This document shows positions 347-62,977 of a DNA stretch of 64,000 nucleotides, piece by piece. The notes below the pieces were generated by a model. The model had not been told where the DNA came from, made no database searches, and was given only the letters and a program-made list of their open reading frames with translations. Within the stretch, counting starts at the first letter, position 1. Each line of letters opens with the position of its first letter. The stretch lies in the NCBI GenBank assembly GCA_029269725.1, contig JARJHS010000003.1, forward strand, positions 464,292 to 528,291. The letters run 5' to 3'. Position numbers and translations under genes: made by a program. This DNA comes from Pollutibacter soli. GTDB taxonomy: Bacteria; Bacteroidota; Bacteroidia; Chitinophagales; Chitinophagaceae.

Positions 347-392
347 ATGAAGAAGTTTATAGTTTTTAGTTTACAGTTGAAAGGGAGTTCAT

Positions 393-425
393 AGTTCTTA
401 GTTCTTAGTTCTTAGTTCTTAGTTT
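393..425. repeat. Heptamer tandem array, unit AGTTCTT
   Basis: Four perfect copies of AGTTCTT plus a partial copy. A degenerate period-7 lead-in (GTTTATA, GTTTTTA, GTTTACA, GTTGAAA) precedes it from about 355. The gene-free stretch 347-680 is dominated by this array and the two arrays that follow; no gene is visible in it. Confidence 0.9.
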
Positions 426-434
426 AAACAGCCG

Positions 435-480
435 GTTGTTCGTTGTTCGTTGTTCGTTGTTCGTTGTTCGTTGTTCGTTG
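435..480. repeat. Heptamer tandem array, unit GTTGTTC
   Basis: Six perfect copies of GTTGTTC plus four bases. The array starts only 9 bp after the AGTTCTT array but has an unrelated unit of the same length. The sequence AACAGCC occurs on both sides. Confidence 0.9.
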
Positions 481-600
481 AACAGCCAGTTTTCAATTCT
501 ATGTTCCCATAAGTTGTCGGTTGTCAGATCAGTCGCAATCAGTTTTTTCATTAGCAATTAGTCTCATTGCAATTTTTATCTTGCGTTGCCATAAACCTCT

Positions 601-642
601 ATTACCTATTACCTATTACCTATTACCTATTACCTATTACCT
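601..642. repeat. Heptamer tandem array, unit ATTACCT
   Basis: Six perfect copies of ATTACCT, followed by CCTGGCTGTTCCCTTCGTCC. That flank partly recurs beside another heptamer array at 36421-36455 (CCTGGCT, then CCCTTCGTCC). The array ends 38 bp before the stop codon of the cupin gene. Confidence 0.9.
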
Positions 643-680
643 GGCTGTTCCCTTCGTCCACCGCCATTCGGCCTTTGGCC

Positions 681-1901
681 TTACTCATCCACTTCCATAT
701 CCGGATTATCCGGACCGAAATGTTTCAACATTACGATCGGATCGGTTTTGGAATGATTTGTTATCACCACGCCATCCTTCGCAGCTTTTTCTGATACAAA
801 ATATTCATCGTGCGTAAGCTGACCGTAACGTATAAGCGCCGGCGTTTCGATATCCCAGACACCCATTTTTCCATGCCCCTGCATCATGATCATTCCATAT
901 GCAGCATTGTCCTTGATCGTCACAGTTTGTCCAGGATGTACTGTGAGTTCCTTGGCACCATAGTCGTGCGATTTGTAACAGATCCAGAGTTCACGATAAC
1001 CTTCTGCATCAGTTTCAGCAAAAGGTCTTACCGGTTTTGGCTCCATAAAACGATCATGCAACAGGTTAGGATCAGTATTTAGCTCCCAATCGAGTACATC
1101 AAGCAATGCCTGGTAATCACCAATACTTTCTTTCGGAGTTCCGTTCCATAAAAGTTCTTCAGGAATGACAGCATTGTTCACCAATGATTGATACATCGCA
1201 AATACATCCGACGCTTTCTGTGGCTCATAAGTACACAAACTGCCTGGCGCATGCAACAATCCCGGAGGTACATCCCAACCTGTTCCAGGCTGCAACCTTG
1301 CAGCCTGGGAGTAATTAGTGATCTTATTATCCCCCTTAGTAAAATTTTTTAGACACTCAAGAATCTGATCCTTAGTTGTGCCTGGGGTTATCCCAAAGAA
1401 AGTATATGGGAAATCACCGCCATGATTATTTACCTGCGGAGGAAAATAATAAGCTTCCGGTTTTCCAAGCTGACCAATCAATGCTGCTTTTTCATCATTG
1501 TGATGAACGTGATGCGGAAGTGGTCCGAGGTTATCGAAAAATTTAGAATACATCGGCCACAAGCCATATTTTTTCCAGAGACGATCACCGATAAGGTCGC
1601 CCTTTAATTCACCAACTGCATCTCTGAGCAAAACTCTTTTGACTTTTCCACCATCGTTGAATACGATCTGGCTCAAACCTTCATTCTCTCCGGTCAGCGG
1701 ACCATTTTTCGCAGGCGTTGTGGATGAAAACCACCTTTCGTCTATACCACCCCGTACTCCCCCCAAAACATAGTAGTCATCGGGATGAAGTTTTATCCTG
1801 CGACCTGGTACGCAAAATGATCTTGGTACCCAGTTAGGCGCAAGTCGTACAATTCCTTTTCCCTGTTCTAATGCGCCTGATGCTGATTTAGCGTATTCCA
1901 T
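681..1901 (-). CDS. Cupin protein, mannose-6-phosphate isomerase-like
   Basis: A 406-residue protein starting at the ATG at 1899-1901. It resembles the two-domain cupin fold of type I phosphomannose isomerases. A histidine-rich metal-site candidate HHVHHNDEK lies at about residues 130-138, the segment GWDVPPGLLHAPG at about 208-220, and a second cupin-like half (HPGQTVTIKDNAAYGMIMMQGHG) near the C-terminus. This supports a metal-dependent sugar isomerase or a close non-phosphorylated-sugar relative. Its neighbours are a DUF4432 mutarotase-like gene 25 bp upstream and an isomerase-like gene downstream, so the cluster probably converts one sugar. The exact substrate is not visible. Confidence 0.6.
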   Translation of the reverse strand: MEYAKSASGALEQGKGIVRLAPNWVPRSFCVPGRRIKLHPDDYYVLGGVRGGIDERWFSSTTPAKNGPLTGENEGLSQIVFNDGGKVKRVLLRDAVGELKGDLIGDRLWKKYGLWPMYSKFFDNLGPLPHHVHHNDEKAALIGQLGKPEAYYFPPQVNNHGGDFPYTFFGITPGTTKDQILECLKNFTKGDNKITNYSQAARLQPGTGWDVPPGLLHAPGSLCTYEPQKASDVFAMYQSLVNNAVIPEELLWNGTPKESIGDYQALLDVLDWELNTDPNLLHDRFMEPKPVRPFAETDAEGYRELWICYKSHDYGAKELTVHPGQTVTIKDNAAYGMIMMQGHGKMGVWDIETPALIRYGQLTHDEYFVSEKAAKDGVVITNHSKTDPIVMLKHFGPDNPDMEVDE

Positions 1902-1926
1902 ATAAACAAATTCAGTTTATCGTTGA

Positions 1927-3006
1927 TTAATTAAATGAGTTCCTGAAATCATTAAGTTTATCCTGATCATGAATCAATTCAAATTCCATTTCATATTCTC
2001 TTGATTCACTCGGTGTAAGAAAGATCAATTTATTTGTAGCTCTCGCTTCTTTCTGACCAATAGGAAAATTGGTCGCAGGCTCAAGTCCTGTAACATATTC
2101 ACCATATCCCCAGTGTTGCCAATTGGTCAGACAGGGCATCTGTGATTTTTTATACCTCACTGCGAACGCAACTCCAATTTTCTGATTGAAAATTCCGCAG
2201 GTAACAATTCCATCAGCATCGGTACCAGCATCAATATAACAGGCAGCCTCACCCGAACCTGCATGCTCACTCAATGGAGGCTGGCACTGGTGGAATGAAA
2301 ATTCGTTGTTGAAAATTTTTTCTGATACTGTTTCTCTTGCTTTCCATGATCCTTTCCATAATATCTCAGCGCCTTCATCCACCAGGGGCCATCCGAAGTT
2401 GAGATGATATAACAACATATGTGGAGCGTCCTGGTTTCCGGCATTGACAACTTCATCATGAATCCGTACTACAGGACTACCAAGTTCACCGGAAATCGTA
2501 CGGCGCATTTCCAGTTTATGTCCGAGCGCGGAACTTTCTTTTATAATACCGCAAATTTTCATTTGCATATTTCCTCTCAGCAGGTCAGGTTGTACAATGG
2601 AAGTTATTTCAGCCGGAGTATTGCTGAACGGACCGTGAAGCCCGCGTTCACCAAATTCATCGGAATCAGGAACACCGGCATGTGATATTCCACAGGTAGT
2701 CATCAATCCACCTGCAAAACTTCTGAGCCAGGTGATACCATGATCGGAAAAAGGTTCAGGTGCCGTTATTCCAGCGTGACTAATCCATGCGAGACTATGT
2801 GCATTAAAGAAAGCGTCGACTATATCCAATCCACGATCGGGAACAACTTTAAATCTGAATCCTGTGCCGGTGTCAAACCATGCGATCCTGGTGTTACGAC
2901 CGGGACCGTTATCGAGAACGGACGTTTCTATTCCACCCAACTGCGTTACATGCGCAACCCTGCCTTTCCATGCAAAGTTTTTTTCTGTTCCGGATGATAG
3001 CGCCAT
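1927..3006 (-). CDS. DUF4432 family protein (aldose 1-epimerase-like)
   Basis: A 359-residue protein with no signal peptide. The segments ARKxxWFDTGTGFRFKVVPDRGLDI, the central HMLLYHLNFGWPLVDEGAEI and the C-terminal WQHWGYGEYVTGLEPATNFP are characteristic of the galactose-mutarotase-like beta-sandwich family DUF4432. Members are thought to bind or epimerise sugars, often in sugar-acid gene clusters. The gene starts 13 bp after the stop of the large dehydrogenase gene upstream and is followed after 25 bp by the cupin gene, so an operon is likely. Biochemical activity is inferred from fold only. Confidence 0.75.
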   Translation of the reverse strand: MALSSGTEKNFAWKGRVAHVTQLGGIETSVLDNGPGRNTRIAWFDTGTGFRFKVVPDRGLDIVDAFFNAHSLAWISHAGITAPEPFSDHGITWLRSFAGGLMTTCGISHAGVPDSDEFGERGLHGPFSNTPAEITSIVQPDLLRGNMQMKICGIIKESSALGHKLEMRRTISGELGSPVVRIHDEVVNAGNQDAPHMLLYHLNFGWPLVDEGAEILWKGSWKARETVSEKIFNNEFSFHQCQPPLSEHAGSGEAACYIDAGTDADGIVTCGIFNQKIGVAFAVRYKKSQMPCLTNWQHWGYGEYVTGLEPATNFPIGQKEARATNKLIFLTPSESREYEMEFELIHDQDKLNDFRNSFN

Positions 3007-3019
3007 TTTTTTCCTGCTG

Positions 3020-5743
3020 CTATTTCGATGCGGTGGTCACTTTTGCTTTATAGATGGCATTGTCCTTATTTCCCCCTGCTCTCAGATAAGCTATCAGGTC
3101 TTTCAACTCATCAGGGTTCAAACCATTGATCATTCCAGGTAACATGATCGATACCGGCGAATTTTTTACATTGCTTACATCTGTCTTCGGTATCTTTTTC
3201 AGTGCTGATGGATCGAATGGATTCTGAGAAATGACATAATCATTATCCGTCTCACTCATTTGCCTTCCCATTACTGTGTTTCCAGATGTTAAAGTATACA
3301 CTTTTGCTGTATACTGATCAGATATCGTTTTGTTCGGATCAATGATCGCTTCAAGCATATCTTTCGCAGAAAAGCGCGTACCCAGCTGCGTTAGATCCGG
3401 ACCAACCGCACCTCCTTCACCATTCATACCATGACAGGAACTGCAGAGCGTCGCCGTAAATAAGTTCCTGCCTCTGTCATAATCACGCGTACCGGAATCT
3501 GCTTCTACTATGGGCAAGGCTTCTTCGACGGTCCATCTGCGACCGGGGCCTTTTGGTCTTTCTGCACCCGCCACGGCAAGCAATCTACCTTGCGGACTCA
3601 CCAGCGCACTGCCGGAAAGGGTATCCATCGCATGGAAATCAGCTTTTGAAACATGTGCGAGCGCCATCTTTCTTGCTTTGTCAATAAATCCGATATAACT
3701 GTTTCCACCCTTATACCCGAAAGCCCCGTAAAACCATTTGAAATACTTTTCCTGTGCAGGGGCTGTCCAACCGGTTTTAGCTTCGCTCAATACAACGGCG
3801 TAATATATCTGTTGCGCTGGCGGAGTTTTAGACAGTGTAGAAGCGATATCCATTCCATACTGGAGGTTACGCATAATGAGGTCAGAAGAATTGGAAACCG
3901 TTTCTGTTCCTGTGGTATCATCAACCGCTTTCTCCATCAATGCCATTGTTTTTGAAACAGCATCAGGTGCATCGAGATACACCAGTATTTTACTGAAAGA
4001 TCGGTTAAGCAGATTTGTCGGAGCCGGATAGTGTGCATCCAGTTTGGCGATGAGATCTGTTTTCTGCGCACCATCAGGTTTTCCCATCCGTGTAATTGCC
4101 AGCTCAACTGCTCTCAGGTAATCGTTTTTAAATTCCTCAGTTAGCGCAGCATAATCGATGCTCAACAATGCTTTATACAAATCATTTTTCACTGCCGGAG
4201 TTGCTGTACGCGCAAGTGCAACTGAAGCGTAGATCAGCTTAACAGGATCTTTTTCCTGCAATGCCTTTGTCTGCCAGCTGGTCAAAGGCTGATGTTCTAC
4301 AGCAATACGTGCAGCATACCTGATAAAGCGATCAGGATTATTCAGATAATTCCACGCATAAGATACTGCACCGGTATCCTGTTTGGAATGGTACTGTTCA
4401 ATATCATGACGCAGCTTACGGGCATCCGCACCTGCTGAATTAGCAGCGGGAGCCTGGGGTGTTGCTTCATCTTTACCAGTATAGTAAACACGATAAAGAT
4501 CAGATTCAAGTCTTCTTCCACCAGTCAGGAAATACAACGCCCCATCAGGCCCGATTACACCATCAGTTAATGGAAGCGGTGAACCTGAAATAAATTCTTC
4601 TGCTTTTGCAGAATATGTGGCACCATTGGGAACAGGCTGAATTGCATAGATGATTCCAAAACTCCAGTCAAAAGCAAAAATAGATTTCCTGTATTTCTCG
4701 GGGAATTTTGCATTTCTTCCGCTTACCAGGTTTGTTGGCGATCCTTGTCCGATATTGATTACCGCAGGAAGATCATCTGCAAAAGTTGGAGGCCAACGGA
4801 TACTGGCAGTACGCCATCCATATTCACTTCCGCTGGTTACATGGCAAATCCTCGTCGGTTGATACCATGGCATACCAAAATCCCATTCCATATCCGAATC
4901 GTAGGTGAACAATTCACCATCTTCATTAAATGCAAGGTCAAACGCATTTCTGTATCCAGCACTCACCAACGTCCAGTCTGTTCCTTCAGGATTTATTCTT
5001 GCAACCCAGCTGCCGGGTGCTGTGCGATCAACCGCGTGACCGTTCGGATCTACAATTTTTGGGAACAGATTATCTTCTTTCCAGGTTTTGGGAAGAAGAT
5101 AAGAATTCATTTCCGGGAGATCTGTATAGTTTCCTGCAATTAAGTAAAGTGATTTTCCGTCGGGGGCGAGAATAATACTGTGCGGCCCATGCTCACCTTC
5201 GCCCTGCATGGCTTTAAGCAAATCAATTTTATCAAACTGGTCATCATTATCGGTATCGGTTAACCTGTACAAACCACTTCCCTTCTGAAAAGCGGAATCG
5301 CTGCGATGATTAACCATTACATACAAACTGTTGAATGCATACAGCAAACCCTGCGCATAACCCATCTGAACAGCTTTTACCAAAGAATCTGAAGCAGGGG
5401 TTCCTGATGACCTGATTGTAAGCTTTTCTATATCAGGTTTTACGGCTGCTGTATCGTTACTGATAGCAGGAATTTTTAACCTGTACAATGATCCGTACTG
5501 ATCAGATACGATCATTCGTCCTTTATCGTCGAAGGTCATTGACACCCATGATCCCTTTTTATCTTCAGAGGGACTGTACAGATGTTGGGCGGTAAAACCC
5601 GGCGCAAGCTTCAGTTTATCGATTTTTGGATTTGAGCTCCTGACCTGCTCTTCATGCTTTTCGTTTTTACAACTGACAAGAACCATCAGTGAAGAAATTA
5701 ATAATGCTACTATCAGGCGGGAAACTTTGGTACACGACCTCAT
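3020..5743 (-). CDS. Lipoprotein sugar dehydrogenase-like beta-propeller with C-terminal cytochrome c
   Basis: A 907-residue protein. The N-terminus is a lipoprotein signal (VALLISSLMVLVSC, cysteine about 25). Residues about 40-430 form a glucose/sorbosone-dehydrogenase-like propeller (SDQYGSLYRL, GPHSIILAPDGKSLYLI, DGVIGPDGALYFLTGG). A helical HEAT-like middle follows. The last ~150 residues hold a cytochrome c haem site CSSCH near residue 767 and a late methionine candidate (SIMLPGM) as axial ligand. It is probably a periplasmic, envelope-anchored oxidoreductase passing electrons to the respiratory chain. It is the first gene of the minus-strand group that includes DUF4432 and the cupin. 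Substrate unknown. Confidence 0.75.
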   Translation of the reverse strand: MRSCTKVSRLIVALLISSLMVLVSCKNEKHEEQVRSSNPKIDKLKLAPGFTAQHLYSPSEDKKGSWVSMTFDDKGRMIVSDQYGSLYRLKIPAISNDTAAVKPDIEKLTIRSSGTPASDSLVKAVQMGYAQGLLYAFNSLYVMVNHRSDSAFQKGSGLYRLTDTDNDDQFDKIDLLKAMQGEGEHGPHSIILAPDGKSLYLIAGNYTDLPEMNSYLLPKTWKEDNLFPKIVDPNGHAVDRTAPGSWVARINPEGTDWTLVSAGYRNAFDLAFNEDGELFTYDSDMEWDFGMPWYQPTRICHVTSGSEYGWRTASIRWPPTFADDLPAVINIGQGSPTNLVSGRNAKFPEKYRKSIFAFDWSFGIIYAIQPVPNGATYSAKAEEFISGSPLPLTDGVIGPDGALYFLTGGRRLESDLYRVYYTGKDEATPQAPAANSAGADARKLRHDIEQYHSKQDTGAVSYAWNYLNNPDRFIRYAARIAVEHQPLTSWQTKALQEKDPVKLIYASVALARTATPAVKNDLYKALLSIDYAALTEEFKNDYLRAVELAITRMGKPDGAQKTDLIAKLDAHYPAPTNLLNRSFSKILVYLDAPDAVSKTMALMEKAVDDTTGTETVSNSSDLIMRNLQYGMDIASTLSKTPPAQQIYYAVVLSEAKTGWTAPAQEKYFKWFYGAFGYKGGNSYIGFIDKARKMALAHVSKADFHAMDTLSGSALVSPQGRLLAVAGAERPKGPGRRWTVEEALPIVEADSGTRDYDRGRNLFTATLCSSCHGMNGEGGAVGPDLTQLGTRFSAKDMLEAIIDPNKTISDQYTAKVYTLTSGNTVMGRQMSETDNDYVISQNPFDPSALKKIPKTDVSNVKNSPVSIMLPGMINGLNPDELKDLIAYLRAGGNKDNAIYKAKVTTASK

Positions 5744-6045: not shown

Positions 6046-6171
6046 ATGACACGACAGATGGGAAAGTTGATAATGATGATGGCGGTTTTACTGCTTCTTT
6101 TCTCCTGCAGAAATAACAGGACCAGCGGAGTATCCGCGGTGAAGAGTTCAGGAATGCATTATGCCAAGTAG
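6046..6171 (+). CDS. Small lipoprotein (41 residues)
   Basis: A short plus-strand frame beginning MTRQMGKLIMMM. It has a clear lipoprotein signal: a basic start, a hydrophobic stretch MMMAVLLLLFSC and a lipobox cysteine at residue 21, then a 20-residue tail. The stop codon TAG is followed one base later by an ACGTTNA heptamer array. A small entericidin-like or orphan lipoprotein is possible, but there is no family match I recognise. The frame is short, so the signal peptide is the only real support. Confidence 0.45.
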   Translation: MTRQMGKLIMMMAVLLLLFSCRNNRTSGVSAVKSSGMHYAK

Positions 6172-6172
6172 G

Positions 6173-6208
6173 TTTAACGTTCAACGTTGAACGTTGAACG
6201 TTAAACGT
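6173..6208. repeat. ACGTTNA heptamer array
   Basis: Five consecutive 7-bp units (TTTAACG, TTCAACG, TTGAACG twice, TTAAACG). It begins one base after the small lipoprotein's stop codon. The following GCTCTTGCGG also follows the array at 55888-55922. Confidence 0.9.
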
Positions 6209-6384
6209 AAGCTCTTGCGGAGGTAAATTGTATCCGTGAACTTAACATCAAATTTTCAAATAGCTTTTGTGCAAAAGGTTCACCTCCATATTTTAAATGT
6301 TGGATGCTAAAGAGTGGACACGTCATTTTGGATAAGCCTTCTTACGTCAACCAAAACGAAGAAATCCTTCCACCGAATAGGCGT

Positions 6385-6419
6385 ACGTTAAACGTTCTAC
6401 CTTAAACGTTATACGTTAG
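6385..6419. repeat. ACGTTNA heptamer array overlapping a stop codon
   Basis: Five 7-bp units starting ACGTTAA, ACGTTCT, ACCTTAA, ACGTTAT, ACGTTAG. The last two contain the final two codons and the stop codon of the LytTR gene read on the minus strand. Confidence 0.85.
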
Positions 6420-6846
6420 AGATCCACTCCCGAAACCGGGGTGCCCTGTACTGGCTGATATGGACTTCCTCCTCCAGCCATTCCGGCTGCACCAGGTCCA
6501 CAATAATCTTTCCGAATTCTACAACACGGAATAACCGGATAGCTTCGAAATGCAGAATAATATTCCTGTTGACGCGAAAAAAAACATTGCTTTCAACTGA
6601 AGTCTCGATATCAGTAAGACTTTGATCTATATGAAAGCGATTTCCGGAGAAATCGATTGCAATTACTTCTTTCTTTAATGAATAAAATACAGCAATCTGT
6701 TTCGCTCTTAATGGGATGAAAGTGTTGCCTTCCCTCGCGATCAGCGTTGTTCTTGGTGTGTTTGCAGAAATGTTGCGTGAAAGTGAATTCGTGTAGCCGT
6801 TAGTGTTTAGTTCACTACTGTCATTCTGGTTCATCTGAGTACTCAT
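6409..6846 (-). CDS. Stand-alone LytTR DNA-binding protein
   Basis: A 145-residue protein. After a ~35-residue polar N-terminus, residues ~38-142 match a LytTR domain: IPLRAKQIAVFYSLKKEVIAIDFSGNRFHIDQSLTDIE, then FFRVNRNIILHFEAIR. This is the usual pattern for DNA binding through the ten-stranded LytTR fold. There is no receiver domain, so it is an orphan transcription factor of a type common in Bacteroidota. No partner kinase is adjacent. The C-terminal Asn-Val-stop is encoded by the heptamer array, so the protein tail may have been altered by array insertion. Confidence 0.85.
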   Translation of the reverse strand: MSTQMNQNDSSELNTNGYTNSLSRNISANTPRTTLIAREGNTFIPLRAKQIAVFYSLKKEVIAIDFSGNRFHIDQSLTDIETSVESNVFFRVNRNIILHFEAIRLFRVVEFGKIIVDLVQPEWLEEEVHISQYRAPRFREWISNV

Positions 6847-7700: not shown

Positions 7701-7819
7701 AGACCAGATCCCTGCGAGTAAAACTACCAGCAAGAAAATGAAAGTAGATTCTAAAACCAACGATTGCCGTAGCCAAAATTAAAAAATGAACGCTAAATAA
7801 ATGTTCAGGGTGTTAACCG

Positions 7820-8118: not shown

Positions 8119-8862
8119 TCAAAAATAACCGCCCTTCTGAGTGATATCCTGGACTGACTGGCCTTCATTTACCCAGCCAAAAATCAGTTTCTCATTTTCT
8201 TTTATTTCTTCTGCCCTGATCAATACTTCATATGCGATGTTCCGCGGAACCACCAAAACGCCGTCGATATCACCGAGGATAACATCGCCCGGTTTTATGG
8301 TTACGCCTCCGATCGAAAGAGTAACCTCGTAATGGGTAATCAGGCATCTCCCAAGACTTCCATTTGAGATCCTGTATTTATAAAAAACAGGAAATCCGGC
8401 TTCGAGAATCTGGTGCGTATCCCGAATTCCACCATCAATACATGCTGCCTTTACTTTTTTTGCTTTTGCGGTTGCAGTCATTACCCCACCCCATAGCGTC
8501 GCCTGCGTGTCGCCTGTAGTATCCCAAATAACGAACGCGTCTTCCTTCATACTATCCAGCATCTTCACCCGATATTCCATCTCACCGGAGATCATAGCAT
8601 TAGGCGAGCTTTTCACTGTGAATGCAAACCCGGCAACTGTCCGGTATTCCCTTAAAGGAATTATATGTCCTGGCAATGCCTGATTGAGTAAACAAAACTC
8701 CCGCAGCACATCGTTTACAGCACCTGTATACAATTGTTCAAATCGCGTTAGCAATTCTTTTTCTGAAACCGGAAATTTTTCATTTGACACTCCTTCTCGC
8801 AATTCAATTAACTGCTCAAGATTCATCATACCCACCTCTTTCTTGTATTGATCGACGCTCAT
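8119..8862 (-). CDS. RraA family protein, probable pyruvate-type class II aldolase
   Basis: A 247-residue protein of the RraA/HMG-aldolase family. The core has the hallmark LWGGVMTATAKAKKVKAACIDGGIRDTHQI, with the Arg-Asp pair that in HMG/CHA aldolases contacts substrate and metal, followed by GDVILGDIDGVLVVPR. It lacks HMG-specific context. As the last gene of an operon with a dehydrogenase, lactonase and dehydratase, it is a good candidate for the retro-aldol step that splits a 2-keto-3-deoxy sugar acid into pyruvate and an aldehyde. That role is inference; RraA itself is an RNase E inhibitor, but that function does not fit here. Confidence 0.75.
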   Translation of the reverse strand: MSVDQYKKEVGMMNLEQLIELREGVSNEKFPVSEKELLTRFEQLYTGAVNDVLREFCLLNQALPGHIIPLREYRTVAGFAFTVKSSPNAMISGEMEYRVKMLDSMKEDAFVIWDTTGDTQATLWGGVMTATAKAKKVKAACIDGGIRDTHQILEAGFPVFYKYRISNGSLGRCLITHYEVTLSIGGVTIKPGDVILGDIDGVLVVPRNIAYEVLIRAEEIKENEKLIFGWVNEGQSVQDITQKGGYF

Positions 8863-27373: not shown

Positions 27374-27379
27374 AAAAGG

Positions 27380-27452
27380 TGGAGGATACCGGGATCGAAC
27401 CGGTCACCTCAAACATGCCATGCTTGCGCTCTACCAGATGAGCTAATCCCCC
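27380..27452 (-). tRNA. tRNA-Ala (GGC anticodon)
   Basis: A 73-nt cloverleaf. The acceptor stem GGGGGAT pairs with ATCCTCC (one G-U), the D arm is GCTC/GAGC, the anticodon stem CAAGC/GTTTG holds loop ATGGCAT, and the T arm contains GGTTCGATCC. Anticodon GGC reads alanine GCC/GCU codons. CCA is not fully encoded. A terminator follows directly. Confidence 0.95.
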
Positions 27453-27466: not shown

Positions 27467-27501
27467 GGCAGGAGTGGGGAGTCAGGAGCCAGAAGTCACT
27501 C
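27467..27501. repeat. Degenerate heptamer array
   Basis: Consecutive 7-bp blocks GGCAGGA, GTGGGGA, GTCAGGA, GCCAGAA, GTCACTC directly before a pyrimidine-rich tract. Confidence 0.7.
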
Positions 27502-33919: not shown

Positions 33920-34040
33920 TTTTCTTGCCTTTGGCTCACACGATTGAAATCGTGGGTTATAAGATCACTTTCCCTTTGGGAATTGAATGACTGTTATACT
34001 TCATTCCGTTTTTCTGTTCGAAACAGTCGGCTGTTTCCGT

Positions 34041-34089
34041 TTGCCTATTGCCTTCTTACTATTGCCTAAACTCTATTTCCTATTTTTGA
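34041..34089. repeat. Degenerate heptamer array, TTGCCTA type
   Basis: Seven 7-bp blocks (TTGCCTA, TTGCCTT, CTTACTA, TTGCCTA, AACTCTA, TTTCCTA, TTTTTGA) ending 15 bp before the DMT gene. A 23-bp core starting with CTATTGCCT recurs at 36425-36447 with one mismatch. Confidence 0.8.
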
Positions 34090-36420: not shown

Positions 36421-36455
36421 CTATCTATTGCCTCCTTACTATTGCCTGTTGCCTG
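36421..36455. repeat. Heptamer array, TTGCCTG type
   Basis: Blocks CTATCTA, TTGCCTC, CTTACTA, TTGCCTG, TTGCCTG. The flank CCTGGCT and then CCCTTCGTCC recalls the flank of the 601-642 array. It lies 66 bp from the citrate synthase stop codon. Confidence 0.8.
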
Positions 36456-36520
36456 GCTCTCCCATGCGCCCTTCGTCCCTGACTTTTCAGTTCGCACCTT
36501 TTACCCCTTAGTCCTAAAAA

Positions 36521-37846: not shown

Positions 37847-38164
37847 GTATGAATACTGTTTGATCTAAGTGAATTGGACTATCCTTACCGTATAAAGGTA
37901 GCTAAAAAGGTGAGAAGAAAGAAGGAGGAAGTAAGAAGCAGAAGGCTAAAAAAGTCAAAAAAGGCCACGAATTAATTGAATTTTAATTGCTTTATCCGTT
38001 TAATCAACACTGTTATCAGAAGTATGAAAGTCGAATTGCAAGAGGGCATTGACCAAGCCCTCTTATTAATAATTTTTTACCTGCATATGGGGATCCTTGC
38101 AATACGATTAACGGTTATCCACTACATCACTTCTGTACTTCCGGCTAACAAGTGCTGACAAAGT
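37847..38164. other. Gene-free stretch with a purine-rich heptamer array
   Basis: The region contains 7-bp blocks at 37910-37951 (GTGAGAA, GAAAGAA, GGAGGAA, GTAAGAA, GCAGAAG, GCTAAAA). The rest has no recognised gene or RNA; the citrate synthase promoter is expected near 37850-37900. Confidence 0.65.
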
Positions 38165-54814: not shown

Positions 54815-54822
54815 GCCTGGAG

Positions 54823-54895
54823 TGACCCCGCAGGGACTCGAACCCTGGACCTACTGATTAAGAGTCAGTAGCTCTACCAGCTGAGCTACGGAGTC
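54823..54895 (-). tRNA. tRNA-Lys (CTT anticodon)
   Basis: A 73-nt cloverleaf: acceptor GACTCCG/CGGGGTC (one G-U), D arm GCTC/GAGC, anticodon loop CTCTTAA with CTT reading lysine AAG, and T arm GGTTCGAGTCC. CCA is not encoded. Its 3' end faces the accessory patch, but no repeat of the tRNA end was seen elsewhere in the window. Confidence 0.95.
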
Positions 54896-55102: not shown

Positions 55103-55894
55103 ATGAGGAAAGTTCTGGTATTCGCCCCGCTATTGATGTGGTTTCTTCAGAGCAATGCCCAGGTGAGCTCATTATTTGAGGAACAACTTTTCATTGAAGG
55201 AGATGATACGCTCCGATGCCGGATACTTACACCACAGAACTTCAGCACGACAAAAAAGTTTCCCCTGGTGGTTTTCCTTCATGGAGCTGGTGAACGCGGA
55301 ACTGATAACGAAAAACAATTAACCTGGGGAGCAGATTTATTCCTCGATTCAGTGAACAGGGCAAAATATCCGGCGATCGTTGTGTTTCCGCAGTGTCCGG
55401 AAAATGAAGCCTGGTCGAGCGTGAAACGCGGACAGATAAAAGATACATTAGGTGGCTTTGAGTTTGATACCGCTGCCGCACAACCGAAAACTGCGGCATT
55501 GGTAATTCGCTTTATCGATAGCCTGGTTGCAAAACCGGGTGTCGATCAGAACCGTGTCTATCTCGGAGGATTATCGATGGGAGGATTTGGAACATTTGAA
55601 TTTCTCTGGCGTCGCCCGGATCTTTTTGCTGCAGCCTTCCCTATCTGCGGAGGTGGAGTTCCGGCAAAAGTTCATTCCTACGCGAAAAAATTACCTATCT
55701 GGATTTTTCACGGTGATGCAGATCCCATTGTGCCTGTAACCCAATCCCGTCGAATGGTTCGCGCATTACAAAAAACTACTGCAGAAATTAAATACACCGA
55801 ATATCCGGGAGTGCAACACGAAAGCTGGAAAAATGCATTTGCAGAGCCCGGGCTGATGGAGTGGATTTTTTCGAAGAAGAAACCCACACGTTAA
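55103..55894 (+). CDS. Secreted alpha/beta hydrolase, prolyl-oligopeptidase/esterase type
   Basis: About 263 residues from the ATG at 55103, which gives a signal peptide (MRKVLVFAPLLMWFLQSNAQ). The fold is clear: PLVVFLHGAGERGTDNEKQL, the nucleophile Ser in VYLGGLSMGGFGTFEF, Asp in WIFHGDADPIVPVTQSRRM, and His in EYPGVQHESW. It resembles PHB-depolymerase/phospholipase-type esterases and acts outside the cytoplasm. The TAA stop codon lies inside a heptamer array (55888-55922). It converges on tgt. Confidence 0.88.
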   Translation: MRKVLVFAPLLMWFLQSNAQVSSLFEEQLFIEGDDTLRCRILTPQNFSTTKKFPLVVFLHGAGERGTDNEKQLTWGADLFLDSVNRAKYPAIVVFPQCPENEAWSSVKRGQIKDTLGGFEFDTAAAQPKTAALVIRFIDSLVAKPGVDQNRVYLGGLSMGGFGTFEFLWRRPDLFAAAFPICGGGVPAKVHSYAKKLPIWIFHGDADPIVPVTQSRRMVRALQKTTAEIKYTEYPGVQHESWKNAFAEPGLMEWIFSKKKPTR

Positions 55895-55922
55895 ACGCAG
55901 AACGTTGAACATAAAACATTGG
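55888..55922. repeat. ACGTTNA heptamer array carrying the esterase stop codon
   Basis: Five units (ACGTTAA, ACGCAGA, ACGTTGA, ACATAAA, ACATTGG). The first holds the TAA stop at 55892-55894. The flank CTCTTGCGG is the same as after the 6173-6208 array. Confidence 0.9.
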
Positions 55923-56074
55923 CTCTTGCGGTAATCAGAACTTATAGTTTCTGCTTGTTTTATATGGTTCTGCCAGCGCAATGAGTTTTCAATAGCAAAA
56001 TAAACTTCATCAAATTATACTTACATCCAAATAAAATTTTTCATTTTATCGGACTTCCAAAACATCAAACTATT

Positions 56075-56102
56075 ACGTTATACATTTAACGTTTGACTTC
56101 AT
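56075..56102. repeat. ACGTTNA heptamer array at the tgt 3' end
   Basis: Units ACGTTAT, ACATTTA, ACGTTTG, ACTTCAT. The last contains the tgt stop codon. Together with 55888-55922 it frames the 3' ends of two converging genes. Confidence 0.8.
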
Positions 56103-57238
56103 ACCCGTCTTGAAATGCGAGGTATCATCTCCTTCTTCCAGGACACAAAGTCGCCCGAAACGATATGTTCTCTCGCTGTTTTAACCAGCCACAAATAAAA
56201 AGCGAGATTATGTATGCTCGCAATGGTAAGACCAAGAATTTCTTTGGATTTTATCAGGTGACGCAAATAAGATTTTGAATAGTAGTTACTGGTTTCGCAG
56301 GGAATGCCAGTATCCAAAGGAGAAAAGTCAAATTCCCATTTTTTATTGTCGATATTAATTACACCTTCAGTAGTAAACAACATTGCGTTACGCCCGTTCC
56401 GTGTGGGCATGACGCAGTCAAACATATCTATACCCAATGAGATACATTCGAGCAGATCCCATGGTGTACCCACCCCCATCAGGTATCGCGGTTTGTTTAC
56501 AGGCAGATGTTCGCAACTCAACGCACAGAATTCATAAATCATGTCAACAGGTTCTCCGACGCTAAGTCCACCGATCGCATTTCCCACTGCATCCTTTGAA
56601 CTGATATATTCACAGGATGCTTTTCTCAGATCTGCAAACGTGCCACCTTGCACGATCGGAAAAAGCGTTTGCTCATACCCGTATTTCGCACCAGCTTTAT
56701 CCAGTCGGTTGATGCACCTGTCAAGCCAACGATGAGTCAGTTCCATCGAATCCTTCACATACCTGTATTCGGAAGGATATGGCGGACATTCATCAAACGC
56801 CATAATGATATCCGCACCGATCGTACGTTGGATATCCATCACGGATTCCGGAGTAAAAAGATGCCGTGACCCATCTATATGACTTTGGAATACGACTCCT
56901 TCTTCAGAAATTTTTCGACTCGCAGCGAGTGAAAAAACCTGGTACCCACCGCTATCGGTCAAAATTGGCCGATCCCAGTGATTGAACTTATGTAATCCTC
57001 CCGCTGCTTCCAACACTTCAAGGCCCGGTCGTAAATAGAGATGATAGGTATTTCCAAGTATGATTTCTGCTTCCACTTCCGTAGCCAGCTGCCGCTGCGT
57101 CACTGCTTTTACTGTTCCGCCAGTACCCACCGGCATGAAAATCGGTGTCTGAATATCGCCATGCGGAGTAGTCAATACCCCCGCCCTTGCTGCATTCTGT
57201 TGTTCTGTCTGTTCGAGTCGAAAGGAAAACTGGCTCAT
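56099..57238 (-). CDS. tgt: tRNA-guanine transglycosylase
   Basis: 379 residues from the ATG at 57236-57238 (MSQFSFRLEQTEQQNAARAG), chosen over a longer frame whose N-terminus lacks homology to the family. Catalytic segments are LTDSGGYQVFSL, IMAFDECPPYPSEY and the nucleophile region MFDCVMPTRNGRNAMLF. It inserts preQ1 in place of guanine 34 of tRNAs for queuosine. The zinc site normally C-x-C-x2-C-x~25-H is altered: IPCETSNYYSKSYLRHL keeps only one of three cysteines. Confidence 0.93.
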   Translation of the reverse strand: MSQFSFRLEQTEQQNAARAGVLTTPHGDIQTPIFMPVGTGGTVKAVTQRQLATEVEAEIILGNTYHLYLRPGLEVLEAAGGLHKFNHWDRPILTDSGGYQVFSLAASRKISEEGVVFQSHIDGSRHLFTPESVMDIQRTIGADIIMAFDECPPYPSEYRYVKDSMELTHRWLDRCINRLDKAGAKYGYEQTLFPIVQGGTFADLRKASCEYISSKDAVGNAIGGLSVGEPVDMIYEFCALSCEHLPVNKPRYLMGVGTPWDLLECISLGIDMFDCVMPTRNGRNAMLFTTEGVINIDNKKWEFDFSPLDTGIPCETSNYYSKSYLRHLIKSKEILGLTIASIHNLAFYLWLVKTAREHIVSGDFVSWKKEMIPRISRRV

Positions 57239-57494
57239 AAGGCGCAAGATAACGCAACTGTTGTTCAGAAGAAGTCCAAGGCAGTAGACCTGAGCCGAAC
57301 GCCGGTAGCCAACAGCCATACCTTGGTTTGGAAAGGATAAGATAACCGGCAACAATTGTTTTGAATAATAAAAATGATTCTACATCTTATTATACCAAAA
57401 GCGGAGATCTGCCGCCCGCTGCCTGTTGCCTTTTCCACATATTGTGAAATCTCCACTTCCACACTTCATTCGCCCATAATCTATCTTCGCGCAC

Positions 57495-58613: not shown

Positions 58614-59230
58614 TATTTAAATACTTCTCTGAGTTTTCACCGGCTCAGACCGATCAGCTTTCTCAGCTGCAGCCATTGTATAAAGAGTGGAATGAAAGGA
58701 TCAATGTGATTTCAAGAAAAGATATTGACTCTCTTTACGAAAAGCATGTCCTGCATTCGCTCGCCATCGCAGCCTGGTTTGATTTTACACCAGGCGTAAA
58801 TATAATAGACATCGGAACAGGAGGTGGCTTTCCAGGAATTCCACTGGCAATATTTTTCCCGCAAACAAATTTCCTACTGGTCGATTCGATCGGAAAAAAA
58901 ATTATGGTTGTTAATGATATTGCCGAAAAAATCGGTCTGAAGAATGTGGAGACAAGACACTGCCGTGCAGAAGATGTCAGGGACAGAAAGTTTGATTTTG
59001 CAGTGAGCAGGGCCGTTGCGCCATTAAAAGAGTTGTGGAAATGGGCTAAGCCGCTGCTTACCAACGAGAGAAAATTAAAAGATTTTAAAAACGGACTTAT
59101 ATGCCTTAAAGGTGGCGATCTTGCCCAGGAAATTGCTGAAAGTCGCCTCCGGCCACATGTCCGTGAAATTCAATCCATTTTCCCGGAACCGGAGTTTGAA
59201 CAGAAATACATTTTGTACACTCCTGTCTGA
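58583..59230 (+). CDS. rsmG: 16S rRNA (guanine-527-N7)-methyltransferase
   Basis: 215 residues from the ATG at 58583 (MEETQKNLEIIFKYF), inside the end of the glycosyltransferase gene. It has the family core LQPLYKEWNERINVISRKDIDSLYEKHVLHSL, the SAM site NIIDIGTGGGFPGIPLAIFFP and FDFAVSRAVAPLKELWKWAKPL. It methylates G527 of 16S rRNA. It is likely co-transcribed and translation-coupled with the GT2 gene. Confidence 0.95.
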   Translation: MEETQKNLEIIFKYFSEFSPAQTDQLSQLQPLYKEWNERINVISRKDIDSLYEKHVLHSLAIAAWFDFTPGVNIIDIGTGGGFPGIPLAIFFPQTNFLLVDSIGKKIMVVNDIAEKIGLKNVETRHCRAEDVRDRKFDFAVSRAVAPLKELWKWAKPLLTNERKLKDFKNGLICLKGGDLAQEIAESRLRPHVREIQSIFPEPEFEQKYILYTPV

Positions 59231-59424
59231 TCACATCCATTAAAATCCCGGTTTGGTTTGCCATTTCAGGATGCCTCTTTAAGATGATTTTTCGCTAGCT
59301 TTATAACTCGATCCCATCAGAAAACGCGGTTCGGTTTTCACGTATGCTTTGCCGTGATCAGCCTGAATCGTAGCAGTAATTTTAATCAGTAACGCAGAAT
59401 TTTACTGCATATTAATCCACAATT

Positions 59425-60060
59425 ATGAACGACATTTCAGTTTGTATCGTTGAAGATAATAAGGACATCCGTCTTGCATTGGAACAAATCATCCAGATGG
59501 CAGATGGTTACAAACTGCTGACCTCCTTTCCTAATGCGGAAGAGGCCGTTGCGGGACTGCCCGCCTGCAATCCGAATGTTGTTCTGATGGATATCAATCT
59601 GGGCGGCATGAGTGGCATTGAATGTGTGGGCCTGGTAAAACCGAGACATCCGGATATCCTTTTTATGATGTGCACGGTTTATGAAGAAGATGAAAAGATT
59701 TTTGAAGCACTGGCCGCAGGAGCCAGCGGTTATATTCTGAAAAAAACCGCACCCGCAAAATTGCTTGAGGCAATTCGTGAATTGTACGAAGGTGGTTCAC
59801 CCATGAGCAGCCAGATAGCAAGGAAAGTGGTGGCGGCTTTCAGCAAAACACCAAAGACTGCAAGTAATCTTTCTCTTGACACTTTATCGCATCGGGAAAC
59901 CGAAATTCTTGAATTACTGGCAAAAGGATTGCTTTACAAAGAAATTGCTGCGAAACTTGGAATTGCACAGGAGACTGTCCGCAAACACGTATACCATATC
60001 TACGAAAAACTCCACGTGAATAACAGGGTTGAAGCAGTGAACAGGTATTTTGGACGTTAA
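59425..60060 (+). CDS. Orphan NarL-type response regulator
   Basis: A 211-residue protein. Receiver domain: CIVEDNKDIRLALEQII, phospho-acceptor Asp in VVLMDINLGGMSG, GYILKKTAPAKL. LuxR helix-turn-helix: LSHRETEILELLAKGLLYKEIAAKLGIAQETVRKHVYHIYEKLHVNNRVEAV. No histidine kinase is adjacent. The last codons and the stop (GGA CGT TAA) lie at the start of a heptamer array. Confidence 0.9.
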   Translation: MNDISVCIVEDNKDIRLALEQIIQMADGYKLLTSFPNAEEAVAGLPACNPNVVLMDINLGGMSGIECVGLVKPRHPDILFMMCTVYEEDEKIFEALAAGASGYILKKTAPAKLLEAIRELYEGGSPMSSQIARKVVAAFSKTPKTASNLSLDTLSHRETEILELLAKGLLYKEIAAKLGIAQETVRKHVYHIYEKLHVNNRVEAVNRYFGR

Positions 60061-60102
60061 ACGATCTACGTATTACGTTTAACGTAGAACGTTCAACGTA
60101 AA
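60054..60102. repeat. ACGTTNA heptamer array filling a convergent gap
   Basis: Seven in-phase units: ACGTTAA, ACGATCT, ACGTATT, ACGTTTA, ACGTAGA, ACGTTCA, ACGTAAA. It carries the stop codon of the response regulator and ends two bases before the stop codon of the M1 peptidase, so nearly the whole 44-bp gap is repeat. Confidence 0.92.
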
Positions 60103-60104
60103 GT

Positions 60105-62033
60105 TTACCAGTTCAATTCAAGCCGGTTGTCCTTTCTCTCCATATCCGCAGTCTGATGTCTTGGGTCTATTTCTACAATCTTAAGATCAAGAAGTTTCCT
60201 GTCGACCTCAAATGTGTAAAATCTGTCTGTCCATTTCCAGGGAGCGAACTCAATTCTTTTTACAGAAGCATCATCCTGCGGTTTACTTCCGAACATCAGA
60301 TATTGAGGGATATAGGCCATCAGTTTTGAACCATCCTTAAAAGTAAGTTGCACATCATTGGGCATTGGCATCGTACCCTTATTCCTCAAGCGGATTTTAG
60401 TCTTACCGCCTTCTTCCCATAAACTATCGATCGAATAGTCTATCGTCTTTATCGTATTCACAAAATAACCTTTGTACCAATCCAGTTGGATACCACTAAC
60501 ACCTTCGGCCAAACGAATGAAGTCGTTTGGATTGGGATGTTTGAACTTCCATGTATCAAAATATTTCAGCATGATCGCATCGCGGTTTTTATCTCCAACG
60601 ATATATGCGAGCGTTTCGAGAAATACTTCACCTTTTACATAAGCATTTGTAGAATAACCGGCATTGGTTTCATACTGATCAGCATGGGTTGTCAACGGTT
60701 CATTATAGTCGCTTTTTGAAATAGCGATATAGGCACGCATTGCACCTTCATGTGGAGTGCTGTCTTTAAAATTCTCCAGGAAATTGATGGTACGCGATTC
60801 AGCAAAAGAAGTAAAGCCTTCATCCATCCATGAATGAAGTGATTCATTTGTACCCAGCATCATCTGGTACCAGCTATGTAACCATTCATGAATTACAACT
60901 CCACGACCAGCACCTTTCAGGAGTGTAGCCATCGGGTATTCCATACCGCCATCACCACCTTGTATAAACGAATATTGCTGGTAAGGATATTTTCCACAGG
61001 TTTTTTCGATATAGGGTAAAGCTCTTGAGGCCAGTTCCAATACGTTTTCCCATTCCCTACGATAATTGGAAATGTATTGATCAGCAGACATATTCTGTTT
61101 TACGCGTGGTGAAAAACCATCGTAAATAGCTTTCAGTTTATCAGGATCAATTTTGTAAAACGCATGCAGTGTTAAGCCATCGCGGAACTTTTTTGAGAGG
61201 TGTATGTACTGCGGATCAGCTGCCCAGACAAAATCATGAACATTTGGTGCAACAAAATGCCAGTTGAGTGTATTTCCTGCTGGCGTTTTAACGGTGGTGC
61301 CTGCAGCTTCGTAACCATGGCCTATCTCCTGTGCATTCTGCAAATAACCTGTCCCCGCAATGGTGTAATTTTTATCAATATTGATGGTTACATCAAAATC
61401 ACCCCACACGCCATAAAATTCACGTGCGATATACGGGGTTGGATGCCATCCTTCATAATCATATTCAGCCAGTTTCGGATACCACTGCGCCATACTGAAT
61501 CTTACGCCTTCAGCATTATCTCTTCCACTTCTGCGAATCTGTACAGGCACCTGGGCCTCAAAACTAAGTTCAAGAACTGCTTTTGACTTTGGTAGAATCG
61601 GCTTGTCCAGTTCCACTTTTAAGATGGTCTCATACAACTTAACTTTTTGAGCACGACCATTTACTTTTACATCGTTCACTTTCTGATATCCTGCCTCATC
61701 AGGTTTCAGATTTAATATTCTGTCCCGTACACGACCATCCCAATCGTTTCTTCCATTCACAACACGCTTTCCCAACTCACGACTGCGTGCATCCATCATA
61801 CTTTCCGGCTGAAATGCATTCCAGTACAAATGATAAAACAACACTTTAAGTGTATCAGGAGAATTGTTGGTGTATTCAATGGACTGCTTGCCTTTAAATT
61901 GATTTTTTTCAACATCCATTTTTACATCCATCTTATATTTCACACGCTGCTGCCAACGATCAGGTTGTGCCTGAGAAATAGACACATGGAAAACAAAAAC
62001 GATCAGTAATGATACAGAAAGAATATTCTTCAT
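60105..62033 (-). CDS. M1 family zinc metallopeptidase
   Basis: About 642 residues from the ATG at 62031-62033, which gives a signal peptide (KNILSVSLLIVFVFHVSISQAQ). The catalytic core has VVIHEWLHSW (HExxH) and the third ligand in WMDEGFTSFAE, with the exopeptidase motif region GGDGGMEYP. M1 enzymes remove N-terminal residues; this one is exported to the periplasm or surface. It is single-gene and convergent with the response regulator gene. Confidence 0.92.
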   Translation of the reverse strand: MKNILSVSLLIVFVFHVSISQAQPDRWQQRVKYKMDVKMDVEKNQFKGKQSIEYTNNSPDTLKVLFYHLYWNAFQPESMMDARSRELGKRVVNGRNDWDGRVRDRILNLKPDEAGYQKVNDVKVNGRAQKVKLYETILKVELDKPILPKSKAVLELSFEAQVPVQIRRSGRDNAEGVRFSMAQWYPKLAEYDYEGWHPTPYIAREFYGVWGDFDVTINIDKNYTIAGTGYLQNAQEIGHGYEAAGTTVKTPAGNTLNWHFVAPNVHDFVWAADPQYIHLSKKFRDGLTLHAFYKIDPDKLKAIYDGFSPRVKQNMSADQYISNYRREWENVLELASRALPYIEKTCGKYPYQQYSFIQGGDGGMEYPMATLLKGAGRGVVIHEWLHSWYQMMLGTNESLHSWMDEGFTSFAESRTINFLENFKDSTPHEGAMRAYIAISKSDYNEPLTTHADQYETNAGYSTNAYVKGEVFLETLAYIVGDKNRDAIMLKYFDTWKFKHPNPNDFIRLAEGVSGIQLDWYKGYFVNTIKTIDYSIDSLWEEGGKTKIRLRNKGTMPMPNDVQLTFKDGSKLMAYIPQYLMFGSKPQDDASVKRIEFAPWKWTDRFYTFEVDRKLLDLKIVEIDPRHQTADMERKDNRLELNW

Positions 62034-62129
62034 ATACGCAGGATTCAATAGAAATTGTTCTGATAAAGGCCGCAAAAATACTGATTTAGCCATGGCTGTT
62101 AAAGGGAAAGCTGTTAAAATCGGTTAAGA

Positions 62130-62185
62130 AGTCAGTAGACAGTAGAGCAGACAAGAAGTTTATAGTTAATAGTTGAAAGTGACAG
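62130..62185. repeat. Degenerate heptamer array
   Basis: Eight 7-bp blocks (AGTCAGT, AGACAGT, AGAGCAG, ACAAGAA, GTTTATA, GTTAATA, GTTGAAA, GTGACAG). GTTTATA and GTTGAAA occur in the same order in the lead-in near 355-380. Confidence 0.75.
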
Positions 62186-62219
62186 TTGTTTCCGGCGATT
62201 GACGGAAATTATACATATG

Positions 62220-62933
62220 CTATTCCTCAGCCGCGTCATCTTCCTGAAACTGGTCTTTGGAACTCTTTCCCGGCCTCCCCGCAACAACAATTACGATCTC
62301 ACCTTTCACGGTTTTCGAAGTAAAATAATCATGCACTTCCTGCAGCGTTCCCCTTTTATTTTCTTCAAATTTTTTCGAAAGTTCGCGGCTGACGGAACAT
62401 AGCCTTTCAGCACCAAAATATCCGATCATTCCGGCCAGTGTTTTGACCAGTCGCATGGGCGATTCATAAAAAATCATCGTGCGTTCTTCGTTTGTCAATG
62501 TGGTCAGCAAAGTATGTCTGCCTTTTTTCAGCGGAAGAAATCCTTCAAAACAAAAACGATTTGTTGGCAGACCGCTTACTACCAGGGCAGGTACAAATGC
62601 TGTGGCTCCTGGTAAACATTCGACTGGCACACCTTCTTTAATACATTCCCTTACGAGATAATAAGCCGGGTCCGAAATTCCAGGGGTACCCGCGTCCGTA
62701 ATCAAAGCGATTTTCTTTCCCTCCTGCAATTGTTTTACAAGATGAGCAGACACTTTGTGTTCATTATGCTGGTGATAGGGAGTAAGTGGTTTGCTGATAT
62801 TGTAATGCTGCAGCAAAACGGAAGAAGTCCTGGTATCTTCTGCAAGAATAAAATCAACTTCCTGCAACAATTGTACTGCGCGGAAAGTGAAGTCTGCCAG
62901 ATTTCCTATCGGTGTTGGAATGATATGAAGCAT
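62220..62933 (-). CDS. rsmI: 16S rRNA (cytidine-1402-2'-O)-methyltransferase
   Basis: A 237-residue tetrapyrrole-methylase-fold protein. Start MLHIIPTPIGNLADFTFRAVQLLQEVDFILAEDTRTSSVLL, then ALITDAGTPGISDPAYYLVRE and GLPTNRFCFEGFLPLKKGRH are the RsmI signature blocks. It 2'-O-methylates C1402 in the 16S rRNA decoding centre. The upstream gap to purS (27 bp) is entirely heptamer repeat. Confidence 0.96.
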   Translation of the reverse strand: MLHIIPTPIGNLADFTFRAVQLLQEVDFILAEDTRTSSVLLQHYNISKPLTPYHQHNEHKVSAHLVKQLQEGKKIALITDAGTPGISDPAYYLVRECIKEGVPVECLPGATAFVPALVVSGLPTNRFCFEGFLPLKKGRHTLLTTLTNEERTMIFYESPMRLVKTLAGMIGYFGAERLCSVSRELSKKFEENKRGTLQEVHDYFTSKTVKGEIVIVVAGRPGKSSKDQFQEDDAAEE

Positions 62934-62935
62934 CT

Positions 62936-62977
62936 ACGTTGAACGTTGAACGTTAAACGTTTAACGTTGAACGTGGA
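62936..62977. repeat. ACGTTNA heptamer array at the purS 3' end
   Basis: Six units (ACGTTGA twice, ACGTTAA, ACGTTTA, ACGTTGA, ACGTGGA). It fills the whole gap between the rsmI start and the purS stop and encodes the end of PurS (Val-Gln-Arg-stop) on the minus strand. Confidence 0.92.

Follow-up and report, generated by a model that had tools for sequence, protein, structure and literature searches.

Introduction

Heptamer arrays are already known from bacteria and, for the G-rich kind, so is a place behind stop codons. According to Rehm et al. (2015; PMC4692102), the GGGAATC and GGGGA(C/T)T heptamers of Xanthomonas and Nostoc occupy the coding strand where they follow a stop, at 0-50 bp, and the non-coding strand where they precede a start, again at 0-50 bp; they are mostly intergenic, may overlap the stop, have degenerate units and occur in pairs of opposite orientation. 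The TAACTGA heptamers of Beggiatoaceae, Cyanobacteria and a few Bacteroidetes are, according to MacGregor (2015; PMC4679880), found in the Beggiatoa genome mostly just upstream of starts. Here we analyse the heptamer arrays of Pollutibacter soli (Chitinophagaceae), beginning with a stretch of 64,000 nt, hereafter the window (bases 464292-528291 of contig JARJHS010000003.1), and describe two classes which share one period, one built on the word GTT and one on the core ACGT, the latter lying mostly just behind stop codons, in the sense of the gene and with no clear trace of unit-by-unit copying.

The host arrays are like the GGGAATC-like heptamers in combining a fixed part with variable letters, in being mostly intergenic, in favouring the coding strand behind stops and in forming pairs of opposite orientation. 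The GTT class obeys both halves of the reported strand rule, behind stops and before starts, whereas the ACGT class obeys the post-stop half and not the pre-start half (two arrays on the non-coding strand, seven on the coding strand). Unlike those heptamers the host units, ACGTWRA and GTTNNNN, are as a rule free of GGG, and the ACGT core is self-complementary; given the lack of G-tracts no quadruplex is expected, and a strand rule seen with a G-tract-free unit speaks against quadruplexes as its cause. With the TAACTGA repeats the host arrays share an intergenic position, lineage specificity and, in some genomes, a mixture with other heptamers, but the ACGT class has a different unit and lies behind stops (38 of 51 arrays) rather than before starts (7 of 51). 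The heptanucleotide simple sequence repeats of Mrazek (2007), as cited in PMC4679880 and PMC4692102, have the same period, an intergenic position and identical units such as those of the GTT class. From these the ACGT class differs in that its adjacent units are not identical.

The short tandemly repeated repetitive sequences of cyanobacteria belong with such heptanucleotide repeats. Repetitive extragenic palindromic (REP) elements and bacterial interspersed mosaic elements (BIMEs), which go with RAYT transposases, are self-complementary, lie behind genes or between convergent genes, have many copies and are lineage-specific; the ACGT arrays resemble them in placement but differ in that no conserved body is seen and Y1_Tnp genes are not consistently nearby. 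No description of these ACGT arrays was found in a literature search that did not reach most subscription journals; within that scope, what appears to be new is a degenerate heptad array with an ACGT core that is linked to stops and whose adjacent units are not identical. Two heptamer classes in one genome offer an opportunity to test whether a period of 7 nt may be maintained through function instead of copying, and touch on why heptamers prevail among bacterial tandem repeats, a question usually answered by polymerase slippage; if true, this would offer a way into the question of how transcripts are ended or protected in these bacteria.

Materials and Methods

The host genome comprises 6.12 Mb in 37 contigs. 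Periods were scanned in 400 kb of it taken at fixed spacing, and arrays were collected from the window and 60 further stretches (one cut to 10 kb for overlap), 1.246 Mb together, within which the part placed by position, the window and two sets, makes up 864 kb.

Placement and orientation of the ACGT arrays

The array sample holds 51 arrays of at least three exact ACGT at 7-bp spacing, three to eight units in size; 32 of these are in the position-placed 864 kb, from which about 230 are extrapolated for the genome. Thirty-eight of the 51 lie no more than 20 bp after a stop (overlap allowed), a place to which random positioning in gaps would assign 8.25%, and by sample set the share is 12/17, 15/19 (partly chosen stretches) and 11/15. 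Seven arrays lie within 20 bp before a start (random 8.2%), four of them also behind a stop. In a count of repeated 4-letter words, made without using the word ACGT, lag 7 gave 891 repeats in 924 post-stop 63-mers, while each of the lags 5, 6 and 8-12 gave between 103 and 159; for sequence before starts the count was 490 at lag 7 as compared with 133 (lag 6) and 113 (lag 8).

Arrays are commoner between convergent genes. Convergent stops carry an array in 24 of 212 cases and codirectional stops in 15 of 442 (p=1.4e-4; gaps of at least 25 bp, a shared array counting twice), and for gaps of 25-75 bp the figures are 13/46 and 6/147; counted per gap in a smaller sample, an array is present in 10/78 convergent, 15/311 codirectional and 3/86 divergent gaps. 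Among the 32 arrays at a single stop, 24 lean to the gene sense, two to the opposite and six to neither. Within 50 bp behind stops 30 arrays are on the coding strand, seven on the non-coding strand and 10 are neutral, the corresponding numbers within 50 bp before starts being seven, two and two. The array at 6172 of the window is scored as a miss in the tally of leaning because the small open reading frame (ORF) in front of it was missed by the gene caller. The idea that the arrays are strand-symmetric DNA sites was given up once they had been oriented by gene.

Units and traces of copying

Without orientation the three spacer letters are T119 A41 G5 C4 (first), C54 T44 A38 G33 (middle) and A135 T24 C7 G3 (last). 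Read in the gene sense (102 spacers of the 32 arrays at a single stop) they become T58 A36 G6 C2, G42 A29 T19 C12 and A95 T4 G2 C1, that is, a unit ACGT-W-R-A. A stop codon is held by 81 of the 102 units in the gene sense and by 38 in the antisense, and a period of 7, which is 1 modulo 3, gives a stop in every frame within three units, such that the arrays could be viewed as fail-safe stops. Such a role leaves the ACGT core unexplained, however; GTTGTTC is stop-free on both strands, and the commonest post-stop spacers of another genome of the family, G093 (TAT, TTT, TGT and GGT in the gene sense), are free of stops although its arrays occupy the same place; we give this explanation very little credence.

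Adjacent spacers are identical in 13 of 118 cases (10.5 expected, p=0.25), and adjacent spacers which are reverse complements of each other are rare (4 against 10.4 expected). Plain unit-by-unit slippage thus fails to account for the ACGT class. The pattern (ACGTNNN)3ACGT has 347 matches in the host genome (overlapping starts, one strand) and its reversed control has none. As the core is common to hundreds of places and the spacers look shuffled, ectopic conversion or recombination via the shared core could have homogenised the one and shuffled the other with no function involved; this leaves the stop-side placement and the orientation unexplained, and we consider it decidedly unlikely. Since adjacent units carry no detectable trace of copying while the core and the stop-side place are kept, a maintained site fits better than a heptamer-making process alone.

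In the host genome a tail holding GCCTA, often as GCCTAAG, follows within 22 nt at 26% of 31 array-bearing ends and at 1% of 423 control ends. Some copies therefore come with a defined tail, as would be expected if a mobile element of the REP or miniature inverted-repeat transposable element (MITE) type, inserting behind genes, carried the array. No conserved body extends beyond the core, however; the genome has four Y1_Tnp genes and only one of the four loci (about 1.5 kb on each side) has an array, approximately 1.1 kb from the gene; and ACGTN{1,3}GCCTAAG has 18 genome matches when its reversed control has 23. The element hypothesis is accordingly very improbable, the link to REP sequences and RAYT transposases was dropped for want of a consistent array neighbourhood at the four genes, and the GCCTAAG tail was dismissed as a genome-wide signal on the same 18 matches against 23. 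ACGT was also considered as an avoided word and rejected, its observed/expected ratio of 0.87 in coding sequence being ordinary among palindromes.

A candidate boundary element at gene ends

Our preferred reading, to which we assign a tentative probability of roughly 0.4, is that the ACGT arrays act as a lineage-specific boundary element at the 3' ends of genes, with sites read at a 7-nt pitch. It builds on four things seen directly in the counts: the placement behind stops, the lean to the gene sense, the convergent bias and the contrast in unit memory between the two classes. The arrays start anywhere between the last bases of the ORF and about 20 nt past the stop, mostly in gene direction; a short convergent gap is filled by one array, and longer gaps often hold one array per gene. 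The ACGT core would be kept by a sequence-specific factor, or by an RNA ladder of short hairpins, at the transcript 3' end, where the effect may be less read-through between converging genes or protection of the end, and the free spacer letters would be positions left unread.

Array-bearing ends do fold more strongly as RNA (mean folding z -2.5, n=43, as against -0.05 in 98 random other ends; mononucleotide shuffles), because the ACGT core is self-complementary. For the array alone against dinucleotide shuffles z is -1.1, and real spacers compared with random ones give a z of +0.21 (s.e. 0.15), hence no stabilisation. As real spacers fold no better than random, the result is as compatible with a protein reader as with a hairpin. 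Hairpins under selection were discarded as a candidate: the complementarity of mirror spacers does not exceed the random level (1.51 vs 1.58), the spacers have no stabilising effect and adjacent reverse complements are depleted.

The boundary reading should be considered with caution, as several points weigh against it. Ten of the 51 arrays are near neither a stop nor a start, and the stops themselves derive from a hexamer caller of our own, not from annotation (927 genes in the array sample; in a control the same cut-off gave one call in a 20-kb shuffle). Arrays were found via the exact core, so that core conservation is partly built in, although the independence of neighbouring spacers and the bias of the outer spacer letters are not. 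Terminator-like hairpins with a T-run occur at 3/21 array-bearing ends and 102/496 others (p=0.59), that is, without measurable depletion; the hint of depletion in a first sample (3/28 vs 86/417) did not reach significance in this larger one and was abandoned. The element is dispensable in the genus, being absent from 24 congeners. Finally, spacers two units apart are identical in 14 cases against 6.0 expected (p=0.002), and the middle spacer letter shows a weak similarity at lag 2 (p=0.0455) and lag 1 (p=0.086).

There is consequently some 14-bp copying in the ACGT class, even if unit-by-unit copying leaves no clear trace, and this can be claimed for a different explanation, in which all arrays are neutral heptanucleotide repeats made by slippage, the ACGT class is old and decayed and gene ends are merely tolerant of it. 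The GTT class does show the signature of slippage (see below), and heptamers are stated to be the commonest class of long simple repeats in most genomes studied, with slippage proposed as the cause (Mrazek 2007, as cited in PMC4679880 and PMC4692102). However, decay that randomised the spacers, whose adjacent members are at the random level, would also hit the core, and tolerance predicts neither 38/51 arrays behind stops against a null of 8.25% nor the gene-sense orientation. Neutral slippage throughout therefore seems to us doubtful.

Period-7 excess and the GTT class

The initial annotation of the window had proposed a genome-wide family of arrays of period 7 with unrelated units, made or maintained by one mechanism. 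The excess of period 7 is borne out: exact runs of at least 10 number 18 at period 7 and 0-4 at every other period from 1 to 13 in the 400 kb, with 10, 8 and 7 at the longer periods 14, 17 and 21, and one Markov shuffle of the sample gave a single run at period 7. In a scan tolerant of mismatches, lag 7 yielded 25 arrays, lag 14 yielded 10 and each of the remaining lags from 4 to 13 yielded 0-3; one shuffle had none at any lag. The window holds five exact period-7 runs of at least 12 matches (mean of 20 Markov shuffles, 0.0). The units are less unrelated than had been supposed. When 32 trinucleotides were followed over 27 periods, ACG/CGT and AAC/GTT at period 7 stood far out, with 23 chains of at least 4 each (0 and 0.33 in shuffles), chains which overlap in part because AACG contains both words; AAA was 2-5 fold up at some periods. 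Most arrays fall into two core classes, GTT and ACGT, sharing one period.

The GTT class numbers 78 chains in the 1.246 Mb, with units such as GTTGTTC, GTTCGTT, GTTCATA and GTTCTTA. Adjacent units are identical in 53% of cases (11% expected), and spacers change in blocks, for example four CGTT followed by thirteen CGTA, which together make a signature of slippage. Positions 300-720 of the window have 50 genome matches besides themselves, nearly all in the array part and most covering 435-480. The side-by-side arrays at 354-480 form part of a composite of a GTTCTTA/GTTCATA array, a short linker and a GTTGTTC array, which recurs in the stretch L163 and twice in L128, once with the order swapped. 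Within 50 bp behind stops 17 GTT arrays are on the coding and six on the non-coding strand (p=0.035), and within 50 bp before starts 14 are on the non-coding and one is on the coding strand (p=0.001). The GTT arrays are best read as heptanucleotide tandem repeats which grow and shrink by slippage and have spread partly as the two-array composite. A single heptamer-making mechanism thus suits the GTT class but not the ACGT class, which lacks a detectable trace of adjacent copying and keeps its core and its stop-side place. That the arrays are not copies of one element holds, in that they are not all one dispersed repeat, though one GTT composite does recur.

Arrays of the window

The arrays and blocks of the window, with one small ORF, are as follows (TRF, the tandem repeat program; P from shuffles, see below).

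354-382, plus strand: degenerate GTT-class array, GTT every 7 bp with varying spacers (trinucleotide-period scan)
386-424, plus strand: GTT-class array, unit AGTTCTT, 5.6 copies (TRF, 96% match)
435-480, plus strand: GTT-class array, unit GTTGTTC, 6.6 copies (TRF, 100% match)
599-642, minus strand: exact array CTATTAC (ATTACCT), 6.3 copies, outside both core classes (TRF, 100% match)
6046-6171, plus strand: small ORF of 41 aa whose TAG (6169-6171) abuts the next array (read by eye, missed by the gene caller)
6172-6212, plus strand: ACGT-class array, five ACGT at 7-bp spacing (TRF, period 7 at 6172-6208)
6381-6420, minus strand: degenerate ACGT-class array holding the stop of the minus-strand ORF 6409-6846 (TRF, period 7 at 6384-6418)
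27467-27500, no strand: purine-rich block with 7/14-bp periodicity, without ACGT or GTT core (above all 400 shuffles)
34038-34075, no strand: TATTGCC-type block, best lag 14 (P=0.0125)
36421-36462, no strand: TATTGCC-type block like that at 34038, periodicity at chance (P=0.12)
37905-37950, no strand: purine-rich block, marginal periodicity (P=0.0325)
55886-55925, plus strand: weak ACGT-class array overlapping the stop of a plus-strand ORF (55894) (lag-7 P=0.0025)
56070-56106, minus strand: marginal ACGT-class array at the stop of a minus-strand ORF (56099) (P=0.0375)
60054-60104, no strand: ACGT-class array occupying the whole gap that separates two convergent stops, 60060 (plus) and 60105 (minus) (TRF 60060-60100, period 14)
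62125-62185, no strand: mixed block, lag-7 self-match 0.56 (above all 400 shuffles)
62936-62975, minus strand: ACGT-class array of six ACGT, holding the stop of a minus-strand ORF (62961) (TRF, period 7 at 62936-62974)

Fourteen segments were tested by setting the lag-7 self-match against the best value at any lag from 4 to 15 in each of 400 mononucleotide shuffles, the P values being uncorrected for the fact that the segments were picked by eye. Nine exceed all 400 shuffles, namely the three exact arrays and those at 6172, 6384, 60054, 62936, 27467 and 62125; the best lag is 14 rather than 7 at 6384, 55886, 60054, 34038, 36421 and 27467. The three exact arrays which the initial annotation had placed side by side (386-642) were confirmed, with TRF matches of 96-100% and no shuffle reaching them. 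From the remainder of its list, most ACGTTNA arrays and the blocks at 27467 and 62125 stand, that at 36421 is at chance, and 55886, 34038, 37905 and 56070 lie between at P 0.0025-0.0375. The CTATTAC array and the purine-rich blocks fit neither the GTT nor the ACGT class.

The shared flanks were found where they had been reported: CTCTTGCGG follows the ACGT-class arrays at 6177 and 55888, and CCTGGCT and CCCTTCGTCC are common to the sequences behind the arrays at 642 and 36421. A search of 41 stretches gave seven occurrences of CTCTTGCGG in all; of the five besides those at 6177 and 55888, a single one (in L130) is near an ACGT array. The sequence AGTTCTTAGTTCTT from the array at 386-424 has 36 genome matches and none for its reversed control. 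The array at 599-642 reads AGGTAAT in the sense of a minus-strand gene ending at 681. At 481-490, after the GTTGTTC array, stands GAACAGCCAG, and at 642-651, after the ATTACCT array, its inverse CTGGCTGTTC, which makes an inverted repeat with arms about 150 bp apart. The array at 62936-62975 reaches almost to the rsmI start (62933, minus strand), and its spacers lean against the usual orientation. Rfam covariance models gave two matches in the window, both to tRNA and neither at an array; the tRNA genes, both on the minus strand, are tRNA-Ala (ggc) at 27378-27452 and tRNA-Lys (ctt) at 54822-54895.

Heptads in related genomes

The RsmI encoded in the window is 72-79% identical (best segments) to the best 80 relatives listed, which are mostly Chitinophagaceae such as Ferruginibacter, Lacibacter and Chitinophaga; in the 24 sampled congeners identity to the host protein is at most 77%. 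An orthologous array at rsmI was sought and discounted, as a lag-7 array begins no more than 60 bp from the stop in 5/80 loci of relatives. The pattern (ACGTNNN)3ACGT has no match in 39 relatives, 24 of them congeners, and is present in one of the 25 sampled genomes of the genus, that of the host. Matches are present in 32 of 394 genomes of the family (the host among them), the genomes that rank next after the host having 39, 21 and 16.

In three genomes of other genera the share of ACGT arrays located no more than 20 bp after a stop is 7/17 (G093), 6/10 (G268) and 2/3 (G060), counts from loci picked by pattern and given with no computed null. In the gene sense the units are mostly ACGT-K-N-T in G093, ACGT-S-A-R in five of the six post-stop arrays of G268 and exact ACGTGAG in G060. 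The reversed control with its TGCA core has 28 matches in G015 (exact TGCAACC units) and two in G029 among the 39 relatives, and by our own count of the table 1-32 matches in 25/394 family genomes; heptads with other cores are hence common in the family. In 80 other Chitinophagaceae loci (L009-L088) period 7 leads with 52 arrays of many unlike units, lag 8 being second with 27. Closeness to stops is modest among these heptad arrays, 15/52 being no more than 20 bp after a stop (null 17%), which is why we restrict the claim of a strong link to stops to the ACGT class. A wider proposal, that bacteria in general mark gene ends by degenerate heptad arrays whose short core is recognised at 7-nt pitch, just past the stop, by a factor or an RNA ladder, strikes us as rather unlikely; its lineage dialects, members of a single functional class that differ in core word from lineage to lineage, would be ACGT-W-R-A in the host, ACGT-S-A-R and ACGT-K-N-T in other Chitinophagaceae and GGGNATC in Xanthomonas and Nostoc.

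A few further observations were made along the way. The host genome, at 6.1 Mb, compares with 1.4-4.1 Mb in the 24 sampled congeners, several of whose assemblies are incomplete, and CTAG is strongly under-represented in host samples (0.81 Mb; observed/expected 0.34 in coding and 0.37 in non-coding sequence). In G015, of the same genus, TGCAGGT/TGCAACC arrays form a close inverted pair (L186, 2249-2326) whose arms share a variant unit (TTACAGG / CCTGTAA) at mirrored spots, as if copied from each other. In Chitinophaga solisilvae (L069) inverted pairs with arms of ATTACGA-type heptads and a short loop lie at 3541-3685, 4464-4597, 6361-6622 and 8536-8673, all within 10 kb; as L075 and L086 contain arms of similar sequence, the heptads of L069 do look like the arms of a dispersed hairpin element.

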